The notes below the pieces were generated by a model. The model was not told where the DNA came from, did not search any database, and was given only the letters and a program-made list of their open reading frames with translations. Positions 22,863 to 60,757 of a DNA stretch of 64,000 bases are shown piece by piece (the first letter of the stretch is position 1; each line of letters starts with the position of its first letter). A program made the position numbers and the translations under genes. This DNA is from Runella slithyformis DSM 19594 (GTDB taxonomy: Bacteria > Bacteroidota > Bacteroidia > Cytophagales > Spirosomataceae): contig NC_015703.1 of assembly GCF_000218895.1 (NCBI RefSeq), forward strand, positions 6,399,001-6,463,000, written 5' to 3'.

Positions 22863-25800
22863 TTAAAACACGACTCTGAAACCGAGTTGTGCCTGCCAGC
22901 GCGACCCCAAGCCCGTGTTTTCAAGATACGTAGTGCTTAATGGCGCACCGCTTGCCGTAACCGGGAAGGTAAAAATAGGGCGACCTGTAGTAGGCGCGGC
23001 AGCGGTATGAGGCACTTCATATCCTACAAATGAGAGCACGTTTGAACGAACTGGCGTCCGAACTAATCCTGCATTTGAGCTAATTAAATTCAGGAAGTTT
23101 TGTACTTCTCCCGAAAACTGAAGCGTAAGGTTACGGCCGGCTACTTTAAATGGAGTGATATCAACCAGCAAACGCATATCCAAACGATTCACCCACGGCA
23201 TGAAAGCACCGTTACGCTCAGCATATTGTCCCCGGCGGCTATTCAAGTATTCATCCTGAGTGATATAAGCGTCCAATTGGCTCCAAATCTCTTGAGGAGT
23301 ACGAGTGTCACGCGCATCCGTTGGCACTAAAATAACTTCATTTTGATTACGCGGGATATACATCAGATCCTTATTGGAGTAACCGTCACTATTTAAGTTA
23401 CCGCCATAATTATATGAAAAGTTTGAACCGGTAAAGCCTGTGTAAATAAATGAAAGCGATGTGGCCAAAAAGTCTTTCACCCACTCTTTGCGCCAAGACA
23501 CAAACCCATTAATACGATTGGGAACTAAGTTATTTGAATACGATAAATTGGGCAAATTGAGTGTACTTACTACGCTGTTACCCGTAAACAATGAACCGGC
23601 TGTCGAGCCACTTTGACCATTGATATCTTTTGAATCGGTACGCGTATAGGCAATCGAACCTTGGATAGGGCCGGTCGTTTTTTGCAATTGAGCGGTAAAA
23701 CTTGTAGAGTATCCCTCACTGATATTGTCAATCATCAATGCCTGTACTACACGGTCATTAACGCGACGGTCAGGACCTGAAGGTTGTGTTACATCACCGT
23801 TGGCAGCACCAAACAAGGGGCGACCATCACCCGGAACAACACCTACGGGATTCGACAAATTGGCATCACGAATGTATACCGCGTTGATGTCTTTCGTATA
23901 AATAAACTCACCTGTAGCGATTAAACCATAGGGCAAGCGTACATCAGCAGCAAAATTGGTACGCCATACCTGCGGAAACTTAAAGTCGGGTACAGTGGCG
24001 TTAATGGTAAACGTAGGTGGAATGACCGGGTTGGCAACTGTTCCGGTTACCGCCGGCAAATAGGCATCCGGATTTGGATTAAAACGGACTTGGTTCAGCG
24101 CCGGAGTTGACGTAGCAGAAGCCGACAAAGTACCGAATAATGCCCCTGTGTTAGAGACTTGGTTTGAAATCCAAACAAATGGAACACGGCCCGTGAAAAT
24201 ACCCGTACCACCGCGTAATTGAATCTTCTTGTCTCCTTTTACATCCCAGTTAAACCCAATACGTGGTGACCAAAGCGGGGTTGATTTTGGGAGTTGATTT
24301 ACTTTAATCTTTTCGCCGCCATTAAAAGTCATTTCGTCTGTTACAGGGTTTCCAACAACACTTGACCCATCAAAAGTTGGAATATCAACACGCACACCTG
24401 CCGTAATGGTAACATTTCGAATACCGGTATATTTATCCTGCGCATAAAAACCGTACTGTGCCGATTTGAACTCTGCAGCAGGGGCCGGTATACCCTGCAA
24501 AGCTGAATATTGAATTGAATAAGCGGCAGGCGCTACAAAACCCGGGGTGCCGGGAGCGTTGGTTACGTTAGCAATAAAATCATTGATGCTGTTGAATCGA
24601 TAATTCCCTTTGATTAAAGGCGTAAAAGCATTGAAGAACTTATAAAATTCATTGGCAGTACCGACTGTAAACGTATGATCTCCCGCAAATATGTCAAATT
24701 TGTCATTTAACTGGAAGATGTTCTGGTCTAAACGGTTGTTTGGAGTAAATGGCTCTGCTCCAAAAGCGGTAAGGTTTTGACCGTTGGGCCCCAGAATGTC
24801 AACCGTTGGAAAATTAGGGCTGTCTGCTCCTCCACCCGCTTGGCGGAAATCACGAAATGCCGAAAAGCCCACTTGTAAGTTATTGGCAAATTTACCGTTC
24901 TTAAACGTCGAATTCAACTCAGCAATTACGTTTTTAAGGTTATTGTTGATTCGATACCATGAGAGAGAAAAAGGCAATGTATTATTGGAGTTACTGCGAC
25001 CGCCGGCAGGGCCGGCTGCAAAACCGCCCGAACCGCTCGGTGCTACATCACGAAATGAATTCAATTGGTTATAACGAATGGTAAACTTATGATTGTCGTT
25101 GATATTCCAATCCAACTTTGCCAGAAATTTGGTGCTCGCTGTAAGGGCATTAAAGGTATCAAAAGTGCCCGGGTCAAATGTCCAATCTTTCCCGGTTGTT
25201 GTGGTAGTCAAAAAATCACGCAAACGACCGAGTTCGGCGGAAGTCTGTTGGTTGCCGGCAACATCTACCGGAAACAGGACCGCCGGATCAGTACGGGTTT
25301 CACGTTCTACATTGACAAAGTAAAACAATTTATTTTTGACGATTGCTCCCCCAAGACGCGCACCGAAGTTATTGCTCTTGAAATCAATGATTGGCGAAGT
25401 AAGATCACCTACTTTTTTATTCACATAATTTTGATTCCGCATAAAATAGTAAGCAGACCCCTGTGTTTCATTGGTTCCGGAGCGTGTTACAGCATTCACC
25501 CCTGCCCCCGTAAACGAACCTTGAGAGACGTCGTAGGGAGAAAGTGAAACCTGTAATTCCTGAATGGCGTCTACTGAAATCGGTTGTGCATTTGACTGTC
25601 CGCCCGGCAAAGCACTCAAGCCAAACACGTTATTGGAGGTAGCGCCATCAATTGAAAAATTGTTGTATAAATTGCTTCGACCGCCAAAGGAAAAGCCGGG
25701 CCCGGCTTGCGGGGTTAAGGCCGAAAAATCTGTAAAGCTCCGCGACAATGTTGGCAATCGCTCAAATGATTCACGTTTTATATTGGTAGAAGCTCCTGTA

Positions 25801-34866: not shown

Positions 34867-34910
34867 CTACTCCTAAAATCTACAATTTTTGCCGTTGTTG
34901 GTACAAAGCC

Positions 34911-34937
34911 GTTGTTGGTGTTTTTTGCACCAACAAC
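34911..34937. repeat. Hairpin related to the 77-bp repeat family
   Basis: GTTGTTGGTG-TTTTTTG-CACCAACAAC is a perfect 10-base stem between the DUF1501 gene and the haem-motif gene. The same TTGGTG-loop of T-CACCAA core forms the second hairpin of the repeats at 40247-40545 and 58395-58465. It lies about 45 bases upstream of the start of the 722-residue protein gene. Confidence 0.6.
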
Positions 34938-38765: not shown

Positions 38766-40199
38766 TTAAGCCAGTAAATCCATCACTGCTTTGCCCTTGC
38801 CGTCGGGTGTTGTATAAAAGGGACGTTTTTCGATTTCATACTGAGTATCAGGCGCAATGCCCAACGCATGGTAAATGGTTTGGTGAATACCGTCAATCTT
38901 CACGGGATTTTCGATGGTCTTACAGGGGCGCTCGTCGGCGGTTTTTCCGTAGACAAACCCTTTTTTGATTCCACCGCCAAACATCAGCATGGAACATCCG
39001 TCGGTAAAATGACGGTGCATTCCGTAAAACTTAATATCGTCCAATATCTCGGGCTGATTGACCTGCTCCTGCACTTTGGCATCAGGACGTCCTTCGACCA
39101 TCATATCGCGGCTGAATTCGCTGGCCAGCACGATCATCGTACGGTCCAAATGCCCGGATTTATCCAAATCTTTCACCAATTGGGCAATGGGGCCATCAAT
39201 CATCTGTTTCATTTTTTCCAGGCGTGTATGACCGTTTTCGTGGGTATCCCAACCGAAGAACGGCTCATATTCGGTCGTGACACTGATAAAACGGGCACCC
39301 TGTTCGGTCAGTCGTTTGGCCAACAGACAGCCTAATCCAAAGCGGCCGGTATTGTAGATGTCGTAACTTTCTTTCGGCTCGGTGCTCAGATTGAACGCCT
39401 TGGCTTCGGGCGAATTAAGCAGCATGTAGGCTTGCTCCATGGAGCGTTTCAACGATTCCTTTTGATAATCACTGCCAAACTCTCCGACAGGACTGTTACT
39501 GATCAAGTCATTGTATAATTGGTTTCGGCGTTCAAAACGCTTGGCGTCCATCCCCACGGGCGGTCGTACGCTTTCCAATCCCTGGCTGGGATCAGGAATA
39601 AAGAACGGCCCAAATTCATTGCCCAGAAACCCTGCCGTATGGAAGGCTTTCAGCTCTTCGGCCTCGCCTACCGTAAACCGCTGACCGATGTCAATAAAAG
39701 CGGGGATCACGGGATTTTTGGGACCCAGTTCTTTGGCGATCCAAGCGCCAAGATGCGGTGCGGCGACCGTTTGCGGCGGCTCATAACAGGTATGCCAATG
39801 GTACTGGTGGCGTGAGTGCAGGATATGTCCCATATCGGCCGCTACGTATGAACGAATGAGCGTGCCTTTATCCATTACTTTTCCGATGGATTGCAGCCCT
39901 TCGGAAAAGTTAATCCCGTCCAACACGGTGGGAATGGGTTTGAACGTACTCAGTACCCGATTTCCTTCCATACCTTTTTCAAAAGGCGTGTATCGTTTGG
40001 GATCAAAGGTTTCGGTATGGGCCATTCCGCCCGCCATCCACAGCAGGATCACGGTGTCGGCCGTTCCGTCCGTTTGACCCATCATTTTACTTCTACAGCC
40101 CGACAGTAAACTCGGCATGGGGGCACTCGCAGCCAAAGCGGCCAAGGTAGCGGCACTCGTTTTTTGAAGAAATTCTCTTCTATTCCATCTATTTTTCAT
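38766..40199 (-). CDS. Tat-exported DUF1501 protein (A)
   Basis: A 477-residue protein with a Tat signal (RREFLQKTSAATLAALAASA) that also ends in a lipobox-like LLSGC, so it may be a Tat-dependent lipoprotein. The DUF1501 motifs are ILLWMAGGMAHTETFDPK, SVTTEYEPFFGWDTHENGHT, LVKDLDKSGHLDRTMIVLAS and SREFS/DMM. It lacks the GEFGRT form seen in protein B, having ASEFSRD instead. The downstream PSCyt/DUF1553 gene starts 10 bases on. The tandem repeat at 40247-40545 separates it from the upstream DUF1549/DUF1553 gene. Activity is unknown. Confidence 0.92.
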   Translation of the reverse strand: MKNRWNRREFLQKTSAATLAALAASAPMPSLLSGCRSKMMGQTDGTADTVILLWMAGGMAHTETFDPKRYTPFEKGMEGNRVLSTFKPIPTVLDGINFSEGLQSIGKVMDKGTLIRSYVAADMGHILHSRHQYHWHTCYEPPQTVAAPHLGAWIAKELGPKNPVIPAFIDIGQRFTVGEAEELKAFHTAGFLGNEFGPFFIPDPSQGLESVRPPVGMDAKRFERRNQLYNDLISNSPVGEFGSDYQKESLKRSMEQAYMLLNSPEAKAFNLSTEPKESYDIYNTGRFGLGCLLAKRLTEQGARFISVTTEYEPFFGWDTHENGHTRLEKMKQMIDGPIAQLVKDLDKSGHLDRTMIVLASEFSRDMMVEGRPDAKVQEQVNQPEILDDIKFYGMHRHFTDGCSMLMFGGGIKKGFVYGKTADERPCKTIENPVKIDGIHQTIYHALGIAPDTQYEIEKRPFYTTPDGKGKAVMDLLA

Positions 40200-40246
40200 G
40201 ATATATTCGAAAAGGTTGTGGCCCGTGGTGGGGGTCCGGTCCGAAT

Positions 40247-40545
40247 TCTACAAAGGTTGCGCCTCTGCCGAGGCTTTTTGGATCTACTTATTTTTTCGCC
40301 ATTGGTGGTGTTTTCACCGCCAATCTACAAAGGTTGCGCCTCTGCCGAGGCTTTTTGGATCTACTTATTTTTTCACCATTGGTGGTGTTTTCACCGCCAA
40401 TCTACAAAGGTTGCGCCTCTGCCGAGGCTTTTCGGATCTACTTATTTTTTCGCCATTGGTGGTGTTTTCACCGCCAATCTACAAAGGTTGCGCCTCTGCC
40501 GAGGCTTTTTGGATTTGCTTATTTTCGCCTTCGGCGGTGCAGCCA
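40247..40545. repeat. 77-bp tandem repeat, four copies, each forming two hairpins
   Basis: Copies begin at 40247, 40324, 40401 and 40478 with the phrase CTACAAAGGTTGCGCC one base in; the period is exactly 77 and the first three are near identical, the fourth diverges after about 40 bases. Each unit contains GCCTC-TGCC-GAGGC and ATTGGTGGTG-TTTT-CACCGCCAAT, separated by a T-rich spacer. Partial relatives are at 34911-34937 and 58395-58465. It is not CRISPR: there are no unique spacers. It fills the gap between two DUF-family genes in one direction, so it could terminate or stabilise transcript segments. Confidence 0.95.
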
Positions 40546-40548
40546 ATT

Positions 40549-42906
40549 TCAATAGATCAGCTGAAACTCCGGATGCAGCGTCATGGCCCATACCAGATCC
40601 TGAATTCCCTCTTCCGTAGGGCGAGGGCCGATGATTTTTTTGGCGGCGGCAATCTCTTTAGGCAGCGGCTCCCTTCCCAATGATTTTCGGTACAATTCTT
40701 TGACCAATACATCGGAGGCAGGGTACTTGGCTTTCCATATTTTTGAACCGCTTTTCAGCGCTTCATTGAACTTACTGCCGTTCGTCAACTCCAACGCCTG
40801 CAACAGGTTAGCCTGCGACGTGCGGCTCGTACTGACGGTTTCGCGATTGGGGCGCCCCAAGGCGGTCTGAAAAGGATCTCTCTGAACCAACGAGGCACGG
40901 GTAAACGGAATTTCCTGTTTGATGGTTTCGGGCAATTGTTTGAACACGATCATCGTATCGCCATAGATGGGGGTAAATACCGCACTTACCGCATCCGAGA
41001 ACTGTTCTGCCGTCATTCTACGTCGTACCATTCCCTGAAATACAAAATCAGGGGCCGTCACCAAACCTGCATCCTTGATCCCGATGGAAGGCAACTGGTA
41101 GGTTTTGGACGTCAGAATGGTATACATCAGTTTCTTTATATCATAGCCGTTGGCTGCAAAATCAGAGGCCAGCCAATCCAAAAGATCCTGGCTCCAGGGC
41201 AGGTTATCCATCGCATCGACAGGCTCTACGATGCCGCGTCCCATGAGTTGGGCCCAAATACGGTTTACAAGCGTGCGGTAAAGTCGCCCGTCTTTGGGCT
41301 GTACTAAAAATTCCGCCAGCTCTTTGAGCCGCTCTTCCGTAACAGGCGTTTCCTTGATCTGCCCCAATTCTTTAAACAGCAGCCCACGTCCGGCCAATTT
41401 GCCGGTGGGTTTATCGCAACGGTGAATTTCCAGCGTTGTATCGGCAAAGACATTGGCAAAGGCATAAGCATCTTCCAACTTCCAATCGCTGATAAAACTG
41501 TCATGACAGGACGCACATTTGAGGTTCAGTCCCAGAAAGACCTGCGCCACGTTTTGGGCCGCCTGCATTTCATTGCGTTGGCTGGCATTGATGGTGCCGC
41601 GCCATTTGATGCCTCTGATAAACCCTTCGGATTCCTTGGTCGGGCTGATTAACTCTTTGACAAACAGATTGTACGGCTTATTGTTTTTAAGCGATGCATA
41701 CAGCCATTTTGTGATGTTAAAACGGCCTTTGGTAATGTAACCCGTTCCTGAGTAATCATTGCGAAGGGCATCGTTCCAAAACGTCAACCAATGCTGAGCG
41801 TAATCTTCGTTACGGCTGAGCAGGCTTTTGACCAATTGTTCGCGTTTGTCAGGGCGATTATCTTCGATGAATACCTGAATATTTTCGGGAGAAGGCAACA
41901 GACCGATCACGTCCAGATAGACCCGTCGGATGTAGGTACGGTCATCGACCACCTTTTTCCAGGCAATCTTATTTTTCTGAAAGTACGCATTCACCAGGCG
42001 GTCTACGGGTTGGGTCAATTCAGCCGTTGCGGGCGGCAGTACCGGCAAACGCGGCGCCATTTCCGCTATACGATAAATGCTTTTTTCGGGACCATCGGGC
42101 CAAGGGGCACCCTGCTTTATCCAAAACTCCAGCAACGCCACTTCTTTTTCACTCAGCCGTTTGCCTTTGGTAGGCATCGCCTCTTTATGACCCGTCGGCA
42201 GGGTGATTCTGCGTATCATCTCACTTTTTTCGGGATTGCCCGCCACGATAATGGGGCCATCTTCGCCACCTTTAAAGATAAATTCTTTTTTGTCGAGCCG
42301 TAATTCACCTTTTGTCTTGGTGGCACTGTGGCAACTGTAACAATTATGCGCAAGTATAGCCCTCACTTCTACATTTAATTCCACGAGCTGCTCTTGCGTG
42401 AGCGGTTGATTGGCAGTGGCAAAGGTAAAATTGGTTCCTCCTTGATTCTCTTCTTTGGTTTCTTTATCGAGGGGAAGTACGCTTGTGAGATAATCCTCTC
42501 CGTGCGTCAGCAAGGCACCGTAATGGCCGGCAATCGTAATTCCCGCCACCGTTAAAAAGAGCATCCCTTTGTAAAGGTTGATTTTTCCGAAACGAAGGGC
42601 CGCCAGTGCCACAACGGAAAACGCCATCGTAGTGATTCCCGACCATTGATGAACGGTCACGGTATCTCCGCCGTACTCTTCCTGATTGGCCAAAAGCAAT
42701 CCCAGCACTACGGCCACCACCGAACTGAGGGTGCCGATCCATACGAGCGCCGTGATACCGGCCCGCAATTCTGCCGACTTTCGTCGCCAGCTTATCATTT
42801 CCAAGACCAACGCTACGAAAAGCAAACTGATGGGAAAGTGAACGATCAATGGGTGCAATCGGCCTAATAACTGCCAAAGCCAGAAGATTTCTGTTGTTTC
42901 CTGCAC
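40549..42906 (-). CDS. Membrane-anchored PSCyt1-DUF1549-DUF1553 protein (A)
   Basis: A 785-residue protein with about four or five N-terminal helices (residues 10-140) of the same DUF2231-like type as the protein at 32698-34866 (GRLHPLIVHFPISLL, AGHYGALLTHGEDYLT). A cytochrome C domain follows with CYSCH (189-193) and a Met in HKEAMPTKGK. The DUF1549 region (YIRRVYLDVIGLLPSPENI, HWLTFWNDALRNDYSGTGY) includes a second CASCH motif. The C-terminal DUF1553 part has LYRTLVNRIWAQLMGRGI. No LamG insert is present. It is the first gene after SusCD, 152 bases downstream, and its stop lies three bases beyond the tandem repeat. Confidence 0.92.
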   Translation of the reverse strand: MQETTEIFWLWQLLGRLHPLIVHFPISLLFVALVLEMISWRRKSAELRAGITALVWIGTLSSVVAVVLGLLLANQEEYGGDTVTVHQWSGITTMAFSVVALAALRFGKINLYKGMLFLTVAGITIAGHYGALLTHGEDYLTSVLPLDKETKEENQGGTNFTFATANQPLTQEQLVELNVEVRAILAHNCYSCHSATKTKGELRLDKKEFIFKGGEDGPIIVAGNPEKSEMIRRITLPTGHKEAMPTKGKRLSEKEVALLEFWIKQGAPWPDGPEKSIYRIAEMAPRLPVLPPATAELTQPVDRLVNAYFQKNKIAWKKVVDDRTYIRRVYLDVIGLLPSPENIQVFIEDNRPDKREQLVKSLLSRNEDYAQHWLTFWNDALRNDYSGTGYITKGRFNITKWLYASLKNNKPYNLFVKELISPTKESEGFIRGIKWRGTINASQRNEMQAAQNVAQVFLGLNLKCASCHDSFISDWKLEDAYAFANVFADTTLEIHRCDKPTGKLAGRGLLFKELGQIKETPVTEERLKELAEFLVQPKDGRLYRTLVNRIWAQLMGRGIVEPVDAMDNLPWSQDLLDWLASDFAANGYDIKKLMYTILTSKTYQLPSIGIKDAGLVTAPDFVFQGMVRRRMTAEQFSDAVSAVFTPIYGDTMIVFKQLPETIKQEIPFTRASLVQRDPFQTALGRPNRETVSTSRTSQANLLQALELTNGSKFNEALKSGSKIWKAKYPASDVLVKELYRKSLGREPLPKEIAAAKKIIGPRPTEEGIQDLVWAMTLHPEFQLIY

Positions 42907-58394: not shown

Positions 58395-58465
58395 CTACAA
58401 AGGTTGTGCCTCTCCGAGGCAGTTAATGCAATACGAATGCCGTCGTTGGTGTTTTTCACCAACGA
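58395..58465. repeat. Diverged single copy of the two-hairpin repeat
   Basis: CTACAAAGGTTG, then GCCTC-TCC-GAGGC (58408-58420), a 22-base spacer, then TCGTTGGTG-TTTTT-CACCAACGA (58443-58465). The order and phrases match one unit of the tandem repeat at 40247-40545. It lies between two convergent genes and probably terminates both. Confidence 0.75.
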
Positions 58466-58466
58466 A

Positions 58467-60580: not shown

Positions 60581-60757
60581 GGTTTTGGTTATTTTTGACG
60601 CAAGTTAAAAAACAATCCGGTGAGCAGGGACGGCTCCGGAAACAGAAAAATATAAAACTGAAAAATATAAAACACAAAAGGTTAATAACCAATTATTTAC
60701 ATGAAAAATACTGCAGCAACAGCCTTCCATTTAACGATTAAATAAAATTACTTTGCG

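Follow-up and report, generated by a model that had tools for sequence, protein, structure and literature searches.

A tandem array between two genes of Runella slithyformis, probably a composite of two REP-like hairpin elements linked to different TnpA transposases

Transposases (TnpA) of the IS200/IS605 type bind the hairpins at the ends of their elements in single-stranded form, and a tetranucleotide beside the foot of the hairpin sets the cut site, while the E. coli TnpA_REP cleaves at a CT dinucleotide situated 5' or 3' of its REP (PMC6006769, PMC8266576). Quentin et al. 2018 (PMC6006769) defined a TnpA subclass 1.2, which they placed also in Cyanobacteria and for which they give REP association as 'no', as well as a subclass 2.6 with atypical hairpins in Bacteroidetes. 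Subclass 1.2 was thus described as near to the IS200 enzymes, without the properties of an insertion sequence and without REPs, leaving its job open. Di Nocera 2013 (PMC3733652) reported GTAG repeats from other phyla and listed Bacteroidetes among the groups with CGTC repeats. The RepRanger paper gives counts for three Bacteroidota genomes, the word transposase being absent from its accessible text (PMC12306157), and the available portion of an NAR 2021 study on TnpA_REP groups 2.2 and 2.5 leaves Bacteroidetes unmentioned (PMC8266576). Within the accessible open-licence literature we found no description of a hairpin class tagged with YTAY.

Here we describe a repeat array in the window, that is, the whole 64,000-nucleotide stretch of the R. 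slithyformis genome that was analysed. An initial annotation had claimed a 77-bp tandem repeat with paired hairpins, neither CRISPR nor microsatellite, lying between PSCyt and DUF1501 genes and ending just before the stop of the upstream gene. Tandem Repeats Finder and inspection of the sequence bear out the repeat and rule out both a CRISPR and a microsatellite, and Pfam confirms the genes on both sides. Tandem Repeats Finder places the array at 40247-40525, with a period of 77, 3.6 copies, 97% matches, 0% indels and a score of 530, and it is one of just two arrays reported by that program across the window. Together with the sequence itself, this delimits four composite 77-bp units at 40247..40547, the fourth incomplete; against the 77-bp consensus unit 1 matches at 100%, units 2 and 3 at 99% each and unit 4 at 89% (query bases 1-64). 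Another short tandem repeat, with a 15-bp unit AAACAGAAAAATATA in 2.7 copies, was observed at 60640-60679.

Each unit joins two hairpins, A and B. Hairpin A consists of CTACAAAGGTTGC followed by GCCTC TGCC GAGGC, and hairpin B of GCC (ACC in unit 2) followed by ATTGGTGGTG TTTT CACCGCCAAT. Both stems had been ascribed to every unit; the GCCTC/GAGGC stem is indeed present in all four, the ATTGGTGGTG/CACCGCCAAT stem in the first three, the fourth being degenerate. On the + strand, element A (CTAC tag, 9-nt spacer, GCCTC/GAGGC hairpin) occupies 40248..40274, 40325..40351, 40402..40428 and 40479..40505, each copy scoring 33.8 bits with covariance model R2. Element B occupies 40297..40324 (44.8 bits with model R1, in whose building set this sequence itself is included), 40374..40401 (41.2 bits) and 40451..40478 (44.8 bits) on the same strand. 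The degenerate fourth B at 40527..40547 (+), read from the sequence and giving no match with model R1, abuts the upstream gene's stop codon (40549-40551), in agreement with the earlier claim. Between 40248 and 40505, a second CTAC lies 9 nt past the A hairpin in three of the four units, giving the order CTAC-N9-hairpin-N9-CTAC. Unamplified copies are also present in the window: a single B at 34907..34937 (+, model R1, 34.5 bits), in another gap of the same gene block, adjoins the stop of the second DUF1501 gene, and a single A at 58395..58420 (+, model R2, 44.2 bits) is directly followed by a single B at 58438..58466 (+, model R1, 38.6 bits).

The array fills most of the 349-base gap at 40200-40548. 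Upstream of it lies a gene for a PSCyt1/DUF1549/DUF1553 protein with DUF2231 (40549..42906, -) and downstream a gene for a DUF1501 protein (38766..40199, -), and this gene pair is itself located downstream of a SusC/SusD-like pair. A coding role for the array was rejected, as the + strand ORFs of 73-161 aa that cross it are translations of the repeat, on the strand opposite to that of the neighbouring genes. Rfam gave no structured-RNA match up to an E-value of 1 in the region 39900-40900.

That the array is a locus-specific regulatory device, setting the expression of the flanking genes through termination or stabilisation of their mRNA, had been suggested by the initial annotation. Its position within a same-strand gene block is consistent with this, as is the folding of single 77-bp units, which surpasses that of shuffled sequences on both strands (z of -3.05 for a single unit folded as the + strand, and of -2.70 and -2.77 for two units folded as the - strand), and REPs elsewhere have been reported to affect mRNA stability and termination (PMC6006769). 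However, all six terminator-like sites of the array, three of the form GCCTCTGCCGAGGC-TTTTT and another three that overlap B, read in the + direction, opposite to that of the genes. The region's two - strand sites lie outside the array, and the regional total of 9 differs little from the 6.4 sites that shuffled sequences give on average. An intrinsic terminator serving the operon is accordingly not in evidence, and termination of the block's own transcript finds no support. The array possibly terminates antisense transcripts, it is possible that its hairpins protect the upstream mRNA, and by analogy an influence on mRNA stability or relative expression is likewise possible. Judging from REPs inside operons, any effect on the operon is probably modest, amounting to a longer spacing and mRNA hairpins between the two genes. 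The distribution of the elements, as set out below, also weighs against the regulatory explanation, which we regard as unlikely.

The 77-bp unit is a composite of two dispersed hairpin families and not a repeat private to this locus. It is matched at 27 places in the genome, many of which match the A half only or the B half only, and with the covariance models at an E-value of 0.05 the genome holds at least 45 copies of A and at least 47 of B, both being lower bounds given that the best 150 first-look candidates were scored per genome. In the re-searched stretches of the genome, A is found at 11 separate places and B at 26, which argues against a function tied to the PSCyt gap. Arrays elsewhere have periods of their own: a 73-bp array that also joins A to B (about C4:5910064-5910262), a 50-bp array of 9.5 copies (from C4:2533493), a 79-bp array of 3 copies (C4:6518545-6518778) and a 56-bp array of A in 8.4 copies (from C4:1377930). 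As periods and linkers differ from one array to another, the hairpin element is the part in common and the linkers are local, the 73-bp array being the exception in that it too combines A and B. In the 79-bp array A is joined to a longer palindromic variant, CGGAACGGTCTGCCGCACGGAAGCGC, and similar ones are seen at other A places (L010, L015); this longer palindrome may be a further hairpin form within the same family. A search with the 15-base tag alone, allowing 3 mismatches, gave 103+88 matches vs 140+112 in the reversed control and was uninformative, and inspection by eye of tag-type base frequencies in A revealed nothing clear for guide-tag pairing.

Pairing of the stems is supported by covariation. 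Two-sided changes occur in 5 of 9 pairs for B, with a score of 0.406 vs a shuffled mean of 0.130, and in 4 of 5 pairs for A, with 0.507 vs 0.179; none of 500 shuffles reached the score in either case. The A alignment was picked for perfect stems and its 100% paired cells are therefore circular, which does not apply to the two-sided changes. The B model was built from 18 copies and left out two unrelated-looking hairpins (window position 23781 and L050) as well as the copies at the loci of the B-linked TnpA described below. The elements lie mostly outside ORFs of at least 200 aa: 15/17 A sites (one or a few per place, picked among the 45 A matches) vs 34/133 shifted positions, and 35 of the 40 B sites examined vs 61/319 shifted positions. 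One of the 2 intragenic A cases and three of the 5 intragenic B cases share a single ORF, possibly called too long, that extends across the 73-bp array. Both A and B are thus short palindromes with many dispersed, mostly extragenic copies, as is expected of REPs.

Each family is found beside a TnpA gene. Nine matches to Y1_Tnp (PF01797) are present in the genome, eight of them above the curated cut-off and two being pieces of one broken gene. The best, here termed the A-linked TnpA (C4:1377267-1377725, -, 153 aa), adjoins the 56-bp A array, with 11 A-model matches within the 0.6 kb beside it. Its motifs PDHIH (HUH) and YILHQKEHH, the latter with the Y---Q--HH signature, assign it to subclass 1.2. 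Orthologs of 71-83% identity in four genomes (G006, G008, G005, G003) are flanked by A-like hairpins with other stem letters and a similar tag, an observation that is not a blind test since the A model holds copies from all of these genomes except G006. Beside the 52-55% TnpA relatives at L120-L122, A copies from outside the model were detected at E-values of 0.001-0.012, with one more at 0.64.

Since the A-linked TnpA scores 78 bits as an IS200/IS605 transposase (cut-off 55) and 30.2 as a REP-associated transposase (cut-off 80), and its relatives of solved structure include the ISHp608 transposase, A might represent one end, left or right, of an active IS200/IS605 element and the array a MITE-like relic; the order of tag, spacer and hairpin is also similar to that of an IS left end. 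The gene, however, is present in a single intact copy, and the next match in the genome is broken and has 43% identity. The orthologs in G005 and G008 share their neighbours, a helicase gene on one side and a cytochrome gene on the other, and in G006, at a contig edge, the cytochrome neighbour is kept, for which reasons the A-linked TnpA has the appearance of a resident gene and not of an IS that moves about. At the G003 ortholog neither neighbour occurs within the stretch examined. Taken with the orientation of the tagged hairpins reported below, these points make an active IS origin quite improbable, and we favour a resident enzyme with dispersed hairpins. A broken relative of the A-linked TnpA, at C4:5543379-5543824, matches in two pieces, one of which contains a stop.

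The copy numbers of A and of its TnpA were compared across 13 genomes. A match to the A-linked TnpA of at least 58% is present in 5 of 6 A-rich genomes (at least 20 copies) vs 1 of 7 A-poor ones (Fisher p 0.029), a weak statistic as the cut-offs here, and in the corresponding test for B, were fixed post hoc, after the counts, and kinship was ignored. Against the link, 69 A copies occur in G010, where the A-linked TnpA finds no match, and G006 possesses the gene but carries only 10.

The B-linked TnpA (C4:3367589-3368107, -, 173 aa) has inverted B-type hairpins on both sides. Its NHIH and YIHNNP motifs fit subclass 2.6 (NH[LIV]H, YIH[QN]NP), as do its occurrence in Bacteroidetes and the atypical flanking hairpins with copies elsewhere, an assignment judged by motifs; its NCBIfam REP_Tyr score of 69.3 is below the cut-off of 80. 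No copy from this gene or its orthologs was used in the B model, which therefore serves as a blind test: it recovers the two copies beside the gene, at 38.1 bits, along with five around the 91% ortholog, and at 14 other TnpA loci its best match has an E-value of 0.22. That ortholog (L141/L152, G011 C1:1093684-1094198), with its five surrounding B copies, matches in two pieces and so looks broken. Among the 13 genomes, the trend for B is weaker than that for A, the B-linked TnpA being present in 3/6 vs 0/7 (p 0.07, with one case a contig-edge fragment and one in two pieces), and the B count stays at 23-37 in three genomes lacking a close B-linked TnpA. For A and B alike, then, palindrome copies flank a Y1 tnpA gene, the arrangement termed a REPtron in the wide sense.

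Further Y1 TnpA genes of this genome were also inspected (C4:1688586-1689059, 1233720-1234136, 2898240-2898434 and 2954916-2955329), and at least three have repeated hairpins of their own nearby. Three carry the hairpins CGTTGGGATT/AATCCCAACG, CCGGCCT/AGGCCGG and GACGGTT/AACCGTC, and the fourth has a repeated palindrome of the CTCCTGCTTTAGC type on each side. In three Runella genomes (L144, L145, L146), class-2 TnpA genes are embedded in extended hairpin arrays (TTTCGGTTT/AAACCGAAA and CTTTGGTTT/AAACCAAAG) that flank them on either side.

At an E-value of 1e-20, 114 of 296 Bacteroidota genomes contain relatives of the A-linked TnpA. We examined 60 subclass-1.2-like loci (11 in Runella, the other 49 chosen among the stronger matches), 58 of which have the Y---Q--HH signature and 53 the HUH motif by a narrow pattern. 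Repeated 13-mers lie within 500 bases of the gene at 52 of the 58 loci with enough flank, compared with 8 at 1000-1500 bases. YTAY stands exactly 13 nt ahead of the 5-bp stem core in 169 of the 631 hairpins found within 600 bases, each palindrome being counted on both strands, and at 54/60 loci (45/49 outside Runella); at other offsets the mean is 13.2 hairpins and the maximum 30. The distal flanks gave the tag at this distance in 6/122 hairpins (4/60 loci), class-2 TnpA controls in 0/154 hairpins at 19 Runella loci, and the end regions of 31 PSCyt loci in 0/34 hairpins. Ten more distant 1.2-like Runella paralogs gave it in 6/82 hairpins at 4 loci, so the rule is weaker there, and at four Runella loci outside the 60-locus set with matches of at least 42% (L124, L129, L130, L135) it was found at all four, in 15/39 hairpins.

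When all tetranucleotides were scanned at offsets 4-39 over the 49 non-Runella loci, TCTA at 14 (29), CTAC at 13 (23) and TTCT at 15 (22) led, with TTTT at 17 tied for third, and the consensus is about TTCTACAAAYATNNN, followed by GYCCC and a loop of 3-4 bases. Tagged hairpins flank the gene on at least one side at 45 of these 49 loci and on both sides at 19, in either orientation, which speaks again against the single end of an insertion sequence. A strict tag-plus-hairpin pattern was matched in 12 of 15 gene-bearing genomes, 3 to 29 times each, although these were no random sample, having been taken from loci already examined that mostly show the tag. In most of them the matches also lie away from the gene, G182 having them only beside it. 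Two of 15 genomes without a match at 1e-20 contained the pattern, once each, and the reversed control gave 6 matches over all 30.

These observations also bear on the reading of A and B as dispersed bidirectional or antisense terminators, spread by ordinary duplication and gene conversion, that simply lie near TnpA genes. A T run does follow A on one strand, at the window array and at several others, and 16 of the 40 B sites lie between convergent ORFs. Other A copies, however, lack the T run, the number of terminator-like sites in the region is near that of shuffled sequences, and termination does not explain a YTAY held at a fixed distance from the stem at TnpA loci and absent from the class-2 control hairpins; we therefore consider such an origin very doubtful. 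The likelier account is that A is the Runella form of a Bacteroidota-wide REP-like class built as YTAY-N9-hairpin (consensus near TTCTACAAAYATNNN-GYCCC-loop), for which the subclass 1.2 TnpA would be the cognate enzyme. In its layout it is similar to an IS200/IS605 left end standing alone, YTAY being the likely point of cleavage, and the array in the window would represent two systems, A and B, amplified jointly as a composite unit.

The history of the locus could be followed in relatives by comparing the orthologous gap at 22 loci. One B+A unit is present in R. aurantiaca (L060), Runella sp. CRIBMP (L061) and the MAG C1_75 (L062), with gaps of 107, 108 and 159 bases, and additionally in G009 (L039). 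At the other 19 of the 22 loci, including the other six from Runella, no unit was seen; one unit at 3 of 22 loci is a further point against a locus-specific regulatory array. The gap measures 19 bases in Runella MFBS21 and R. zeae and 11 in Telluribacter, and in R. defluvii, R. limosa and HJF.20 (L064, L065 and L066) it holds 83-118 bases of other, unrelated simple repeats of the TTATCAGTTACTGG and AACAGGAAACCC types, which makes the gap after the PSCyt gene seem a recurrent site of repeats. Among the remaining relatives the gap ranges from 10 to 178 bases, with no unit seen. Scans of the unit-less loci with the A model (13/19; L063-L073, L075 and L087) and the B model (12/19; the same minus L069) gave nothing in the gap save a weak B-like hairpin in Spirosoma fluviale (L072 6384-6425; 18.9 bits, E 0.0064), whose stem ATTGGTGGTG/CACCACCAAT encloses a longer loop. 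No clean empty site that would show insertion was found in a near relative.

As single units occupy the orthologous gap, one B+A unit predates the split of five Runella species, and among these amplification to about four units is seen in the window's species only. At this site the A stem is GCCCC/GGGGC in the four relatives and GCCTC/GAGGC here, the pairing being kept, and the second CTAC after A is missing from the single units of L060-L062. The four one-unit relatives (G012 for R. aurantiaca, G011 for CRIBMP, G002 for the MAG, and G009) have 1-4 A copies each and no match above 39% to the A-linked TnpA, the absence in G002 resting on a genome that is 83% complete. The idea of a composite A+B unit scattered across relatives was dropped, because L035, L038 and L039 proved to be the orthologous site. 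The suggestion that copy number may vary between strains is supported in the form of a difference between species (one unit in four relatives, about four here), the variation being shown across species only; the search for the unit in related genomes, which returned the single units at L060, L061, L062 and L039, establishes that copy number is not constant.

On balance we think it likely that REP-like elements of two kinds are clustered in the array, A belonging with a TnpA of subclass 1.2 type and B with a subclass 2.6-like TnpA_REP, and that a B+A unit ancestral to the five species was amplified here only. In such a system, a Y1 (HUH) single-strand DNA transposase would recognise the short palindromes of A and B as folded hairpins, and the subclass 1.2 TnpA would recognise the A hairpin and cut at or beside the YTAY tag, represented here by CTAC. 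This proposal is drawn from the resemblance of YTAY-9 nt-hairpin to a solitary IS200/IS605 left end and from the CT contained in the common CTA(C/T); IS608 uses TTAC. Since three of the four window units carry a second CTAC, 9 nt beyond the hairpin, A could be cut on both sides there. Tandem growth may have come about by TnpA-assisted copying, with the enzyme acting on neighbouring copies, or by slippage between hairpins, and plain replication slippage could suffice.

A and its subclass 1.2 TnpA, as read from the sequences, amount to a REPtron-like system with a displaced tag resembling that of an IS200 end, in which cleavage and movement are putative. In its Y---Q--HH signature, HUH motif, length of about 150 aa, low copy number and presence in Bacteroidetes, the enzyme agrees with subclass 1.2 (PMC6006769); the difference is that REP association is given as 'no' in that source, whereas tagged hairpins accompany nine in ten of the loci examined here. 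The fixed geometry of tag and hairpin therefore offers a candidate substrate for the subclass 1.2 transposases and could account for hairpin repeats of a class that is widespread among Bacteroidota genomes. The B-linked TnpA resembles subclass 2.6, or RAYT group 5 with its 'atypical secondary structures', in its motifs, its occurrence in Bacteroidota and its dispersed non-GTAG flanking hairpins, and departs from it in the REP_Tyr score below the cut-off and in the joining of B to A as a composite unit.

With the classical GTAG REPs, BIMEs and RAYTs of E. coli and Stenotrophomonas, the elements share short intergenic palindromes in many copies, beside a Y1 transposase gene and sometimes in arrays. 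A, however, has YTAY 13 nt from the stem and is without GTAG at its foot, and near the subclass-1.2-like genes GTAG or GTGG feet were counted in 4 of the 631 hairpins vs the 169 with YTAY at -13, so A is not a classical GTAG REP. Neither are the window units a BIME, being direct repeats of two families and not alternating inverted REPs of one. With the end hairpins of the IS200/IS605 elements IS608 and ISDra2, A shares a conserved tetranucleotide at a fixed distance 5' of the hairpin and a homologous transposase, but here there is no bounded element, the hairpins occur in many orientations, and a single intact gene copy with kept neighbours does not fit a mobile insertion sequence. For the question of how such repeats act on an operon, the Runella locus provides a natural series, the same gene pair being separated by no unit, one unit or four units in related species.
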